64,000 nt of DNA from Haloarcula sp. H-GB4 (lineage in GTDB: Archaea; Halobacteriota; Halobacteria; Halobacteriales; Haloarculaceae): the NCBI RefSeq assembly GCF_030848575.1, contig NZ_JAVDDX010000003.1, forward strand, positions 124,001 to 188,000, written 5' to 3'. The position numbers were made by a program, and so were the translations under genes. This document shows positions 38,785 to 43,566 of the stretch, piece by piece. Below the pieces are notes generated by a model. That model was not told the DNA's origin. It did no database searches and was given only the letters and a program-made list of their open reading frames with translations. Position 1 is the stretch's first letter, and each line of letters starts with the position of its first letter.

Positions 38785-40086
38785 ATGGCTAAAGAGACAC
38801 CGAACCACAGCTACCAGCGCCCGGATCGCGGAGCACAGAACTGGCATGTCCCGTTGAACGAGAATTTTTCACGTATCGACACGGAAGTTGAGATCAAAGA
38901 TGCTGCTGAAAACCTAGATCAGTATCAACCAAAGGAGGGTGCCAAGTTCCTCGCAACAGATTCGCGACGTATATTTATCGGAAACGGAGAGGAGTGGCTG
39001 GAGTTTGGCAGCGCGGCAGGGCGCGCGCGTTCCGTCTCACTTACTGAGGGCAGCGAGAGAGCCACAGTAATGAGTGACGGCACGTTCGTCGCGCAACCAG
39101 GACAACTACAGGACGTTATCGATACCGCATCTACTGGGTCTGAGTTCGGACAGGCTCCTGCACAGACCGTCAAGCTGGTCTCCGGTGAGACGTACGAAGT
39201 ATCCGAGACGGTCCGTCTAAAGAGAGGTGTCAGACTGGAATGTAATGGGGCGAAAGTAGTCCCGACGGGTGACTTCAACGTCTTCGAACTCGCCCGTGAT
39301 ACAGTTCTAATTGACCCCTTTGTCGACACTCGGGGCAAGAGTTGGAGTTCGACACAGGTCGTTATTGGCCCTCAAAACGCACAGAAATTAGATACAGCCA
39401 ACCGTGCCTGGGTAAAAGACGCATACCTTCTTGGAGACGCAGGCAAGGGTATCGGAATACAGTTCCGTGGTGGTTCGAAACCCTGCTCGATGCAGGTCGC
39501 AAACGGGACCCTTGATGGGTTTGACCGGGCAGTAGACTTCTACGCTGCTGGTGAGAACCGCGATCCACAAGGTGACTGGTCGAACGGGAATCAGTTCTGG
39601 GGACGGATACAGGACTTCCGGATCGGGATTAGTATGCGGTCGGACGGTGCGGAGGTCAGTGGGAATACCGTTCGCATACAGACGCAGCCCGAACCAGAGG
39701 TAAGTGAATGGCTCTGGAAAATGGAGGCCGACCCACGAGAGTCCCGAGATGATAATAAATTCGTTATGAAAGGCAATACGGTAATGGCATATCCCTGGGA
39801 CGTATCGTCATTCAAGCGGAATAACTCATATTATTCGGAGAGCGATCGAGATGCGCCGTTCTGGTTTATCGGGCGTGGTCGCCGGTACGGAAACTCACTC
39901 TTAGATATGAGCGGGGTGCGTGGTAACCAATACGTGCTCAACAATTCAGATACGCCAGACAGGAACGGCATCTTCACTGCACATGGTGGCTTTGTCGTGG
40001 GTACAACAGAGTTTGAGACACAACCAGCATACCAGCAAAACGATAGCCGAAATTGGCATCCTCAGTCACGAAATGAGGCTGAGTAA
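38785..40086 (+). CDS. Right-handed beta-helix protein with a tail-fibre-like N-terminus
   Basis: The 433-residue product starts at MAKETPNHSYQRP. The N-terminus (residues about 8-45) reads YQRPDRGAQNWHVPLNENFS then RIDTEVEIKD, a pattern like the attachment domain of phage-type tail fibres and spikes. A short beta segment with FLATDSRRIFIGNGEEW follows. From residue about 110 the chain resembles the pectate-lyase-like parallel beta-helix: AQTVKLVSGETYEVSETVRL, VRLECNGAKVVPTGDFNVF, then VSGNTVRIQT, GNTVMAYPW and GNQYVLNNSD. No signal peptide is visible. It is the paralogue of, and convergent with, the next gene (46-base gap). Possible roles are glycan binding or cleavage; no catalytic residues can be assigned. 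Confidence 0.8.
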   Translation: MAKETPNHSYQRPDRGAQNWHVPLNENFSRIDTEVEIKDAAENLDQYQPKEGAKFLATDSRRIFIGNGEEWLEFGSAAGRARSVSLTEGSERATVMSDGTFVAQPGQLQDVIDTASTGSEFGQAPAQTVKLVSGETYEVSETVRLKRGVRLECNGAKVVPTGDFNVFELARDTVLIDPFVDTRGKSWSSTQVVIGPQNAQKLDTANRAWVKDAYLLGDAGKGIGIQFRGGSKPCSMQVANGTLDGFDRAVDFYAAGENRDPQGDWSNGNQFWGRIQDFRIGISMRSDGAEVSGNTVRIQTQPEPEVSEWLWKMEADPRESRDDNKFVMKGNTVMAYPWDVSSFKRNNSYYSESDRDAPFWFIGRGRRYGNSLLDMSGVRGNQYVLNNSDTPDRNGIFTAHGGFVVGTTEFETQPAYQQNDSRNWHPQSRNEAE

Positions 40087-40131
40087 ATAGTTTCCCTGTC
40101 GGCTACGAGCGCCTAAGTAGTCCTAATGGGA

Positions 40132-41391
40132 TTAGTTCTTCGAGTCTTCGTGCCACATCCGACTTTCGCTGTTCCGTTGGTACGCAGGCGGATGTGAGAA
40201 CTGCCTGGTGCCGGTGACCTTCCCACCATGATAGGTGAAGATCCCATTTCGATCTGGGTAATCAGAATTATTGACGATATACTGGTTTCCGAGCTTCCCG
40301 GATTGGTCAACGAGTGAATTACCGTAGTTTATCCCCTCGCCGATATACCACACTGGTGGCTTCCGATCGCCACTCTCAGCGAACGGATTGTTGTCCATAT
40401 AATTGTTGTTGTCCCACGGATACACCATCATGGTGTTCCCCGACTTCCGGTACATATTGTCGTCTCGATCGCTATCGGAGCGGGGATCGTCCTCCATGTA
40501 CCAGAGCCATTCGCTCACATCGTTGTCAGGCTGGACCATCAACTTGAAGACGTTCCCCGAGACTTCAGCTCCCTCAGAGCGCTGGTTGACGCCGACACGG
40601 AAGGCTTCCAGTGAGCCGTAGAACTGGTTCCCGTTCGACCAGTCGCCCTGTCCACTGTAATCGTTGCCGCTGGCATAGAGGTCGATCGCGATATCGAACC
40701 CGTGTATTGTTCCGCTAGCGACCTGCATCGAGCAGGGTTTCGAACCACCCAAGAACTGGAGTCCGATGCCCTCGCCGGGTGTTCCCCAGAGATAGGCGTC
40801 TTCAACGGTTGCGCGGTTCGCCAGCTCAATTTTGTCTGCGTCCGATGCGCCGACGACGACCTGTGTCGAATTCCAATTAACCGACCGGGTGTCAATGAAC
40901 GGATCGATGAGCTGCGTCCCGCGGTACATCTCAATGACATTGAAGTCGCCTTCCGGAATGATCCGAGCGCCGTTACATTCGAGCCGGACATTCCGCTTCA
41001 GTCTGATAGTATCCGATGGGAAGTAGTTCTCACCGGAGACGAGCTTCACAGTTCGGCTCGGGCCCTGTGCCCAGGTGTGTGACTTAGACGCCTGATCGAT
41101 TACGGACTGTACTTCGCCCGGCGGTGCGATGAGCGACCCGTCGTCGGCCTCAGAAACGGAATCGTCGGATGCACTGAGGCTCCCAACGCGGTTCCAGTTG
41201 CTGCCGTCGCCAATGTATACCGTACCGGTATCGGTCGCCAAGAACTTCGACCCCGTCTTCGGTTCGTACTGGCTGATATTGGACTCTGCATCCCGGAGTT
41301 CGACGTGGCTGTCGAGTTTTTCGAAGTTTTCGTTGAGCGGTACGTGCCAATCGAGCGTGCCCTCTGCGGGCGTGTTGTATCGTTCTGCCAT
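40132..41391 (-). CDS. Right-handed beta-helix protein, paralogue of the preceding gene
   Basis: The 419-residue product begins MAERYNTPAEGTLDWHVPLN and continues ENFEKLDSHVELRD, matching the N-terminus of its neighbour. The same landmarks follow in order: FLATDTGTVYIGDGSNWNRVG, QSVIDQASKSHTWAQGPSRT, VRLECNGARIIPEGDFNVIE, GSKPCSMQVASGTIHGFD, VSGNVFKLMVQPDNDVSEWL, GNTMMVYPWDNNN, GNQYIVNNSDYPDRNG. The proteins differ throughout, so this is an old inverted duplication rather than a recent copy. It lacks a signal peptide. It lies 12 bases downstream of the CBM lipoprotein gene on the same strand, which ties it to a carbohydrate-facing function. Confidence 0.8.
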   Translation of the reverse strand: MAERYNTPAEGTLDWHVPLNENFEKLDSHVELRDAESNISQYEPKTGSKFLATDTGTVYIGDGSNWNRVGSLSASDDSVSEADDGSLIAPPGEVQSVIDQASKSHTWAQGPSRTVKLVSGENYFPSDTIRLKRNVRLECNGARIIPEGDFNVIEMYRGTQLIDPFIDTRSVNWNSTQVVVGASDADKIELANRATVEDAYLWGTPGEGIGLQFLGGSKPCSMQVASGTIHGFDIAIDLYASGNDYSGQGDWSNGNQFYGSLEAFRVGVNQRSEGAEVSGNVFKLMVQPDNDVSEWLWYMEDDPRSDSDRDDNMYRKSGNTMMVYPWDNNNYMDNNPFAESGDRKPPVWYIGEGINYGNSLVDQSGKLGNQYIVNNSDYPDRNGIFTYHGGKVTGTRQFSHPPAYQRNSESRMWHEDSKN

Positions 41392-41403: not shown

Positions 41404-43566
41404 TTACTGGGTACCCCCGTACCCACCCATCCCGTAGCCTTCACTGCCAAAGTCGTCAGTACCTGACTCGGTCGCTGTCTCGGTTTCAGTCGGCGTCTCA
41501 GTTTCCGTTGGTGTCTGAGTTGGTGTCTCAGTTTCCGTTGGCGTCTGAGTTGGTGTCTCCGTCTCGGTCGCTTCGCTGAATTCGAACCAGTTGAAATCAA
41601 TGCCGGAGCCAACTGCTTTCACTTGGATGACGTGCTCGCCATCATCTTGGACCGTCACGTCAGGAAGCGTCGCCGTTTCCCAGGTCGTCCAGCCGCCGGT
41701 GTTCGGGACATCTACTGTCCCAAGTTGCTCACCGTCGAGGCTGAACTGCAATTGCCTGTTATCGCGTGTCGTCGCGACGCGAACGTCGATGTCGTATGTT
41801 CCGCCCGGCACCTCCGCGGTGTATTCGAGCCATTCACCGTCCTCGAAATACCCAACGTTGTACGTCCCGGAACTGTCCTGCGTTTCTCGGATATCGACAT
41901 CAGAATCCCGATAGCCAAGACCATACTCACTGCCGGCAGTAGTATCGTGATACGACACGCCTTCTCCGCCAAGGTCGTATGCTTGTGACTGTATCCTGCC
42001 GGGAAGCGTCGGGATATCATCGAATGGCTGATTCCCGACGACCTCAAACTCGGCCCAGTTGAAATCGATGCCGGACCCGATAGCTTCGACCCGAAGCACC
42101 CGCTGTCCGTCGGCATCGATGGTCACGTCTTCCAGTGTTGCAGTCTCCCACGAGGTCCATCCGCCCGTGTTGGGAACGTCAACGGTTCCTAATTCCCGAT
42201 CGCCGAGAGAGAACTTGAGTTGTCTATCGTCTCGCGTTGTTGCAACACGAGCCCTGAGGTCGTATTGTCCTGGCGAAACATCGGCCGAGTATTCGAGCCA
42301 TTCGCCGTCTTCGAAGTACCCGATGTTGTATTCCCCGGAGTCGTCTTGGGTCTCTCTAATGTCGACATCGGTGTCACGGTAACTGGTGTCGTATTCGTTT
42401 CCAGCAGTCGTATCAGAGTATGATACCCCCTCACCACCCGTGTCGTAGTTTTGTGCCTCGATGCGTCCGGGAATCGTGGCTAGAGTCCCATTGTACGGCT
42501 TCTGTGCATCGACTCTATCGAATTCGACCCAATTGAATTCCACACCGGAATCTAGTGCTTCGACGCGAAGCGTCGATTGCTGCTCGGACTCGATTTCGAT
42601 GTCCTCTACGGTGACTGTCTCCCACGAGGTCCAGTCGCCTGTGTTAGGGACAGTGACGGTTGTGAGGGTACGATCCCCAAGAGACAGTTCGAGTCGCCCG
42701 TCAGAAAGTGCCGAGGCCACTCGGACCCTAACATCGTACGTTCCGGGTGAGACGTCGAGTGTGTACTCGAGCCACTCACCGGTCTGGAAGTAGCCGATAT
42801 TGTATTTCCCTGACTCGTCCTCTGTTGGCCGGATATCAACGTCTGTATCTCGGCTTGATGAACCGTAGATATTTCCACCAGACGTGTCATGGTACGCTTC
42901 GCCTTCGCCACCAAGGTCGAAATTCTGTGCCTGAATACGACCAGGAATTGCTCTGACAGTCCCCTCGTAGGGTGACTGAGACTGTGTCGTGCTGTCCGTC
43001 GAAATGGTTAGTGAGTAATCGCCACCGCTTCGACTGATATCCATTACTTGCAGGTAGTGCGTGCCACTGTCTGAGAGAGACTCCGGCAGATACACCGGGG
43101 CATCCGAACTCGCGTACGCCTGGGAGAGTAGTTCACCGTCGGGATTGAACATCCCAAGCGCCGCAGCACCCGTATCTGCACTTGGCGTAAATTTAACCGC
43201 TACATCTCCGCTGTCGGGCCTGAACGCAAAAAGGTCAGAGGAACCTGGAGACAGTGTTGTCGAGAGCGGTGAATCGATGCTGAGCCTGCTGACCGAACTT
43301 GCCATGCTGGTATCTTCGGCCACCTTCGAAACGTCGACTGCGGCGAGTTGCGTCGTAACTGCAGGCTCACCACCGTAGCCGAATTTTGTTGCCGCTCCCC
43401 CTGCGGTAGGATCATCTTTACCGGCACATCCTGCCAAGGACGCGGCGGCAACGCCTGCTATTTTCATGTACGTGCGGCGGTCTACGATGGTCGATCCCGT
43501 CGTACTACTTTCATCTCGCGACACCTCACCACTGTCGCACGAGCGATTCTGTTCTTCGTTGGTCAC
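41404..43566 (-). CDS. Tat lipoprotein with three CBM6-type carbohydrate-binding modules and a Gly-Tyr tail
   Basis: The 720-residue product has a twin-arginine signal (DRRTYMKIAGVAAASLAGC) with the lipobox Cys near residue 47. A domain at about 95-190 resembles PPC beta-sandwiches. Then come three repeats of about 150 residues (200-352, 357-510, 514-664). Each starts IPGRIQAQNFD-like with GGEG and a Y-x-D-T element, and contains DVDIR, NIGYFEDGEWLEY, VPNTGGWTSWET and F-N-W-x-E-F. These match CBM6/CBM35 modules with the W-x-x-W-E-T strand. A Thr/Pro/Glu linker (665-700) leads to the tail DDFGSEGYGMGGYGGTQ. No enzyme domain is present. It is a cell-surface glycan-binding protein, co-directional with the beta-helix gene. 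Confidence 0.88.
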   Translation of the reverse strand: MTNEEQNRSCDSGEVSRDESSTTGSTIVDRRTYMKIAGVAAASLAGCAGKDDPTAGGAATKFGYGGEPAVTTQLAAVDVSKVAEDTSMASSVSRLSIDSPLSTTLSPGSSDLFAFRPDSGDVAVKFTPSADTGAAALGMFNPDGELLSQAYASSDAPVYLPESLSDSGTHYLQVMDISRSGGDYSLTISTDSTTQSQSPYEGTVRAIPGRIQAQNFDLGGEGEAYHDTSGGNIYGSSSRDTDVDIRPTEDESGKYNIGYFQTGEWLEYTLDVSPGTYDVRVRVASALSDGRLELSLGDRTLTTVTVPNTGDWTSWETVTVEDIEIESEQQSTLRVEALDSGVEFNWVEFDRVDAQKPYNGTLATIPGRIEAQNYDTGGEGVSYSDTTAGNEYDTSYRDTDVDIRETQDDSGEYNIGYFEDGEWLEYSADVSPGQYDLRARVATTRDDRQLKFSLGDRELGTVDVPNTGGWTSWETATLEDVTIDADGQRVLRVEAIGSGIDFNWAEFEVVGNQPFDDIPTLPGRIQSQAYDLGGEGVSYHDTTAGSEYGLGYRDSDVDIRETQDSSGTYNVGYFEDGEWLEYTAEVPGGTYDIDVRVATTRDNRQLQFSLDGEQLGTVDVPNTGGWTTWETATLPDVTVQDDGEHVIQVKAVGSGIDFNWFEFSEATETETPTQTPTETETPTQTPTETETPTETETATESGTDDFGSEGYGMGGYGGTQ

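Follow-up and report, generated by a model that had tools for sequence, protein, structure and literature searches.

Tailspike-like proteins of a Haloarcula glycan locus may be docked on, and exported with, a tailed Tat lipoprotein

Two signal-less spike proteins encoded in a glycan locus of Haloarcula sp. H-GB4, here called A and B, share an N-terminal domain with other haloarchaeal proteins, and one of them is encoded directly beside a Tat lipoprotein with a GYG tail. The combination of a virus-type spike with a tailed Tat protein is well supported as a conserved two-part module. On balance, we favor the reading that A and B are domesticated tailspikes docked on the lipoprotein tail, displayed at the cell surface and probably Tat hitchhikers. 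The conservation of both modules, their adjacency, the Tat and lipobox signals of the partners, the Tat-signal homologues elsewhere and the viral counterpart were directly established, and docking, trimerization, export and surface location are what we infer. The analysis started from a window of 64,000 nucleotides (contig NZ_JAVDDX010000003.1, positions 124,001 to 188,000), in which the following features were located.

38785 to 40086, + strand: gene A, ATG start, 433 aa, signal-less tailspike-like protein
38812 to 38883, + strand: proposed docking peptide of A, residues 10 to 33, YQRPDRGAQNWHVPLNENFSRIDT, common to phage fibre N-termini
38887 to 39012, + strand: second half of the A N-domain, residues 35 to 76, predicted trimerization-type fold by homology to the B model
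39037 to 40083, + strand: beta-rich body of A, tail-spike family phrog_3783, E 1.1e-5
40132 to 41391, - strand: gene B, ATG start, 419 aa, signal-less tailspike-like protein, paralogue of A
40135 to 41139, - strand: body of B, tailspike/pectate-lyase-like by PHROGs, AF2 model and BFVD
41176 to 41304, - strand: compact beta domain of B, residues 30 to 72, modelled like phage-fibre and collagen XVIII trimerization domains
41308 to 41379, - strand: proposed docking peptide of B, residues 5 to 28, YNTPAEGTLDWHVPLNENFEKLDS, with an AF2 helix over WHVPLNENF
41404 to 43566, - strand: partner, Tat lipoprotein with three CBM6/35 modules (ORF and Pfam)
41407 to 41451, - strand: C-terminal GYG tail of the partner, FGSEGYGMGGYGGTQ, proposed docking site
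41575 to 42969, - strand: CBM6/CBM35 modules of the partner, approximate limits
43369 to 43383, - strand: FGYGG motif of the partner, shortly past the lipid-anchored Cys; a recurring feature of larger partners
43426 to 43479, - strand: Tat signal of the partner with lipobox, RRTYMKIAGVAAASLAGC, read from the sequence

Genes A and B are convergent paralogues, as a preliminary description of this DNA had stated: A lies on the + strand and B on the - strand, and their products share 55% identity over 424 columns (E 2e-173). The gap between them is short, as described, but measures 45 bases between the stop codons rather than 46. The same description was correct that 12 bases separate the stop codon of the CBM6/35 lipoprotein gene from the start of B, that a WHVPLNENF segment followed by an ID-x-x-VE element opens both proteins, and that neither has a visible signal peptide; the conserved domain starts 4 to 9 residues past the start Met. 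The assignment to a glycan locus was likewise borne out, with glycosyltransferases, asparagine synthase, sulfatases, a MOP flippase and an aglF-like nucleotidyltransferase encoded around A and B. The same gene order and neighbors were found on the megaplasmids pHH400 of Haloarcula hispanica (pair HAH_RS18950/18955, partner HAH_RS18945) and pNG700 of H. marismortui, and the pair is kept in many further Haloarcula genomes. This conservation of the pair with its neighbors indicates that the pair is not a product of chance. In two Haloarcula species, a methyltransferase-like ORF lies between A and B (L068:7261-8383 and L072:7261-8199), and this longer spacing indicates that closeness of the two genes is not essential. 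Contig C1 of the window genome encodes a 716-aa protein (L047:6643-8793) with two tandem elements, WHIPLNENF and WDNPLNENF, and without the trimerization domain; its gene adjoins sulfatase, glycosyltransferase and flippase genes.

The N-terminal domain common to A and B (N-domain) spans ~75 residues. Alignment of 27 diverse members gave the consensus TPxxGxxDWHVPLNENFxxID-DVExRD-N-Y-PKxGAKFLATDTGxVYxGDGxxW, in which P, G, W, N, N, F, Y, D, G and W are invariant. The domain is present in 109 of 392 Halobacteriales genomes (28%) and in 46 of 95 genera, and the 72 N-domain loci found by scanning GTDB contigs of 84,980 species genomes all belonged, by record title, to Halobacteria. In the AF2 model of the B N-domain, a helix over WHVPLNENF is followed by a confident compact beta domain (pLDDT 90-94). 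Foldseek placed this model near phage hyaluronidase fibres, Geobacillus virus E2 ORF18, Mtd and collagen XVIII/XV trimerization domains, with probabilities up to 0.97-0.99 yet E-values of only 0.1 to 2 (0.13-0.19 for the matches of highest probability); the best PDB matches were phage fibre proteins and collagen trimerization domains. Pfam Mtd_N was matched by 20 of the 27 members at E <= 1 (best 3.6e-5) and fell below the cut-off for B. A split version was also observed, in which a stand-alone N-domain protein of about 100-190 aa is followed by a separate signal-less beta-helix gene (L044:9998-12238, L045:10016-12296, L051:3240-4876 and L066:6421-8853). In Halogeometricum, Halobellus and H. 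mannanilytica (L133, L134, L135, L136 and L338), an ORF of 385-500 aa has the PLNENF element close to its C-terminal end, with a coiled-coil-like stretch after it; several of these loci carry GYG-tailed Tat proteins.

In the lipoprotein encoded beside B, the Tat signal with lipobox and the FGYGG motif are followed by three CBM modules, and a linker rich in Thr and Glu leads to the tail. Elsewhere among the loci read, the N-domain gene is usually preceded by one for a Tat protein with a like tail and a different body, such as LamG (L038, L043), PPC (L045), a carbohydrate-binding protein (L044) or almost nothing (L087, L090, L095). Minimal partners comprise a lipo-Tat signal and ~70 mature residues, which are linker plus tail. 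Among 54 distinct tailed proteins, a Tat-like signal was recognized in 50 and a lipobox in 39. The tail and the N-domain alone were constant; partner bodies and spike bodies varied. In Natronococcus sp. CG52, an unannotated short ORF (L040:9815, + strand) ends with NYGEYGYGGTKIERGSDR just before the N-domain gene and appears to be a missed partner gene. A variant operon, found outside any recognizable virus (L036:9532-11207, L104:2691-5322, L105:5523-7198 and L124:527-2501), encodes a T4 gp19 tail-tube-like protein (PF06841, E 6.5e-29 at L036), an N-domain fibre with Peptidase_S74 and, after these, a small Tat protein bearing (Y/F)Gxx(G) repeats.

For an unbiased test of the pairing, we used a DNA pattern for exact GYGxxGYGG. 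In the genomes of 98 relatives, 32 of 38 matches ended 7-68 bases upstream of the start of an N-domain gene of the same orientation, as did 47 of 74 matches in the 392 Halobacteriales genomes; the chance expectation, computed on the 98-genome set, was ~2e-5 per match. Tail and N-domain also co-occurred by genome among the 392 (odds ratio 47, p 1.5e-29; outside the own genus 28, p 1.6e-17), with p-values that are nominal because the genomes are not phylogenetically independent. In 12 regions inspected around non-adjacent matches, several tails again terminated Tat-signal proteins. The strict motif was absent from 54 of the 109 N-domain genomes, some of which hold looser tails (L079, L101, L113). 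No tail was seen near the N-domain gene at several loci, e.g., Halorussus L037, L039, L041 and L046, and no separate tailed partner accompanies A. In the open-access literature, to which our search extended, no description of the N-domain/GYG-tail pair was found.

The N-terminus had been likened to that of viral tail fibres, and this likeness was supported: the opening ~25 residues, TPxxGxxDWHVPLNENFxxID, are found again at the N-termini of phage tail fibres, and the PLNxNF segment lay near ORF N-termini in 67 of 68 pattern-found viral loci. Many phage fibres carry this short first half of the N-domain at their N-terminus without the second half. The full N-domain was found on only one viral contig, L139, and neither the whole of P0001 nor the N-domain matched any of 50,697 phage records. 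On the viral contigs L139, L140 and L141, a YGxxG-type repeat is carried by a phrog_1160 baseplate protein near a PLNxNF fibre. On L139, a Baseplate_J gene comes first, then the fibre with the full N-domain; the phrog_1160 baseplate protein encoded two genes further starts with MSHVGYGRGGYGSGTYGDGGY. On L140, genes for a gp25-like protein, Baseplate_J and a phrog_1160 protein that ends with YGYSEFGYNENGYGGVW / STYGYSEFGYNENGYGGVW are followed, ~33 bases on, by a WHIPLNENF fibre. A tail-bearing protein thus directly precedes the fibre gene, reproducing the layout of the cellular pair among virus tail genes. On L141, the repeat-bearing protein is Tail_P2_I/phrog_1160. Viral GYG triple repeats are mostly found on a ~700-aa phage tail protein, and a PLNxNF-like fibre was in reach at only 3 of 79 GYG-triple loci, indicating that the pairing is a particular docking solution rather than one that holds across phages. 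In dozens of viral contigs (L218-L296), the ~700-aa protein carries an invariant-looking GYGxGGYGxGGYG loop. A pattern fixed to particular TAC and ATG codons detected no YGG tail with an adjacent fibre start in viral contigs; in phi92 and Vibrio phage VnaP, a related baseplate protein lies beside a fibre, but with neither motif. The reversed-motif control of the viral scan was set aside, as it was confounded by the near-palindromic repeat.

These results suggest that cells took over a virus docking device for surface protein display. In tailed viruses, the conserved N-terminal peptide would fix the fibre to the YGxxG-repeat baseplate protein. In the cell, the same peptide of the N-domain would dock on the YGxxG-type C-terminal tail (FGSEGYGMGGYGG) of the adjoining Tat lipoprotein, and the lipoprotein, with its CBM modules, would keep the spike within the glycan coat, on the outer side of the membrane. 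A and B would be domesticated virus-type tailspikes, probably trimeric, and would cross the membrane assembled, as hitchhikers of the Tat lipoprotein. The Tat system moves folded proteins, and, since A and B have no signal, hitchhiker export is the most likely route. The preliminary description had spoken of an unknown export route, for which the adjacent Tat lipoprotein with its GYG tail is now a candidate. At 14 loci, a Tat-signal homologue of a signal-less N-domain body lies nearby and has no N-domain (about 45-59% identity, ~350 aa), indicating that one body type can come in two versions, one exported by Tat and the other signal-less and fitted with the N-domain; this pattern concerns other spike bodies, and no Tat-signal homologue of the A/B body itself was found in the data. 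Haloarchaeal lipoproteins mostly use Tat (PMC2945643), and Tat hitchhiking is established for PaoABC and HybOC (PMC4273604). The gene arrangement of such pairs, as in HybO/HybC and PaoABC of E. coli, is a signal-less folded protein beside a Tat-signal partner, and A and B likewise have no signal and a Tat-signal partner next door. Unlike HybO/HybC and PaoABC, however, A and B are not redox enzymes, and the proposed contact pairs a modular tail peptide with a viral docking domain, both of which are combined with many unrelated bodies. When the tail was joined to the N-domain by reading through the stop codon, AF2 gave a disordered tail (pLDDT < 50) and no docking pose, the monomer being a weak test. 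A search for experimental localization data found none.

Furthermore, we analyzed the bodies of the spikes, previously described as a pectate-lyase-like helix. PHROGs tail-spike families matched the A and B bodies with E-values of 1e-5 to 5e-5. The AF2 body model was beta-rich and of low confidence (pLDDT 61, pTM 0.54); its best matches among viral structures (BFVD) were phage pectate-lyase/tailspike models (E 9.7e-4, prob 1.00), and no significant match was obtained in the PDB, where the HK620 tailspike and capsule depolymerases ranked at the top. The weak PHROGs and structure matches are in line with a pectate-lyase-like body; the right-handed beta-helix is the weakest part of that description. 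No Pfam or NCBIfam family was found above cut-off in A or B, hence there is no curated catalytic family, and no CAZy-like Pfam family matched either protein. The bodies may be glycan depolymerases, as proposed earlier, but a binding or scaffolding role is equally possible. Among the bodies of other N-domain proteins, 12 of 49 carried Peptidase_S74, the chaperone of tailspikes, and polysaccharide lyase (a few), UspA1 repeat and Peptidase_G2 were also detected; such domains are compatible with trimeric spikes.

The glycan context, the tailspike/pectate-lyase-like bodies and the few N-domain proteins with polysaccharide lyase domains could also point to secreted glycan lyases or hydrolases of an EPS/N-glycan locus, in which the N-domain merely trimerizes, exit is leaderless and independent of the lipoprotein, and the adjacency is that of an EPS operon. 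We regard this as unlikely, because it does not explain why the last ~15 residues alone are conserved in unrelated Tat proteins beside N-domain genes, nor why some partners have ~70 mature residues and no carbohydrate-binding part. Alternatively, the N-domain and the GYG tail may not bind each other, and a third component, such as an envelope sorting or assembly protein, would recognize both. The N-domain loci without a nearby tail, the several tailed Tat proteins that stand alone and the lack of contact in the AF2 model are consistent with this quite improbable arrangement; by contrast, tail and fibre are neighbors among the virus's own tail genes on contig L140, and a conserved third gene was not noticed at the loci inspected. 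A further reading, in which the spikes are parts of a provirus or contractile injection system resident in the genome, or form a reservoir of viral fibres, is very improbable: viral counterparts exist, a T4 gp19-like tube gene occurs at some loci and T6SS-like systems, likewise derived from phage tails, are possible in haloarchaea (PMC11566945), but Baseplate_J was found in only 5 of 40 N-domain relatives and was not detected in the window genome, which makes a resident tail or injection system unlikely, and the locus itself, a glycan cluster, is conserved on megaplasmids. A search for the gp19 tube family gave no match in the window genome, with controls equally silent. The earlier suggestion of domesticated viral parts is thus supported, no baseplate gene being detectable in this genome.

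The reading of A and B as docked, domesticated tailspikes can be compared with known systems. In tailed-virus spikes and fibres (phage hyaluronidase HylP2, Geobacillus virus E2 ORF18, Mtd and the HK620 tailspike), as proposed for A and B, an N-terminal attachment peptide is followed by a trimerization-type domain and then by a beta-rich, glycan-directed body, and the S74 chaperone occurs in relatives of A and B. Unlike those spikes, A and B lie in a cellular glycan locus without a baseplate, and their partner is a Tat lipoprotein. PblA and PblB of Streptococcus mitis are signal-less phage tail proteins that act at the cell surface, released by lysis of prophage-bearing cells; here, in contrast, prophage tail genes were undetected and a lipoprotein partner is encoded. 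Cohesin and dockerin form a modular docking pair that tethers varied catalytic and binding bodies at the surface, both partners having their own export signals. The N-domain and the GYG tail resemble them in the proposed modular docking but differ in sequence, and A and B are signal-less.

We tentatively propose that haloarchaea possess a modular display system in which a viral baseplate-fibre joint serves as a combined secretion and anchoring tag for many bodies. In this system, a Tat-exported and often lipid-anchored protein with a terminal GYG tail would take preassembled trimeric spikes that lack a signal through the membrane and afterwards tether them. If true, this would explain how spike proteins without a signal arrive at the archaeal surface, it would be a case of a virus assembly joint put to cellular use in secretion and anchoring, and it would mark a two-part signature that many Halobacteriales possess. 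The predictions are testable in the genetically tractable Haloarcula and Haloferax, and the finding bears on the joint evolution of glycan coats and virus receptors.
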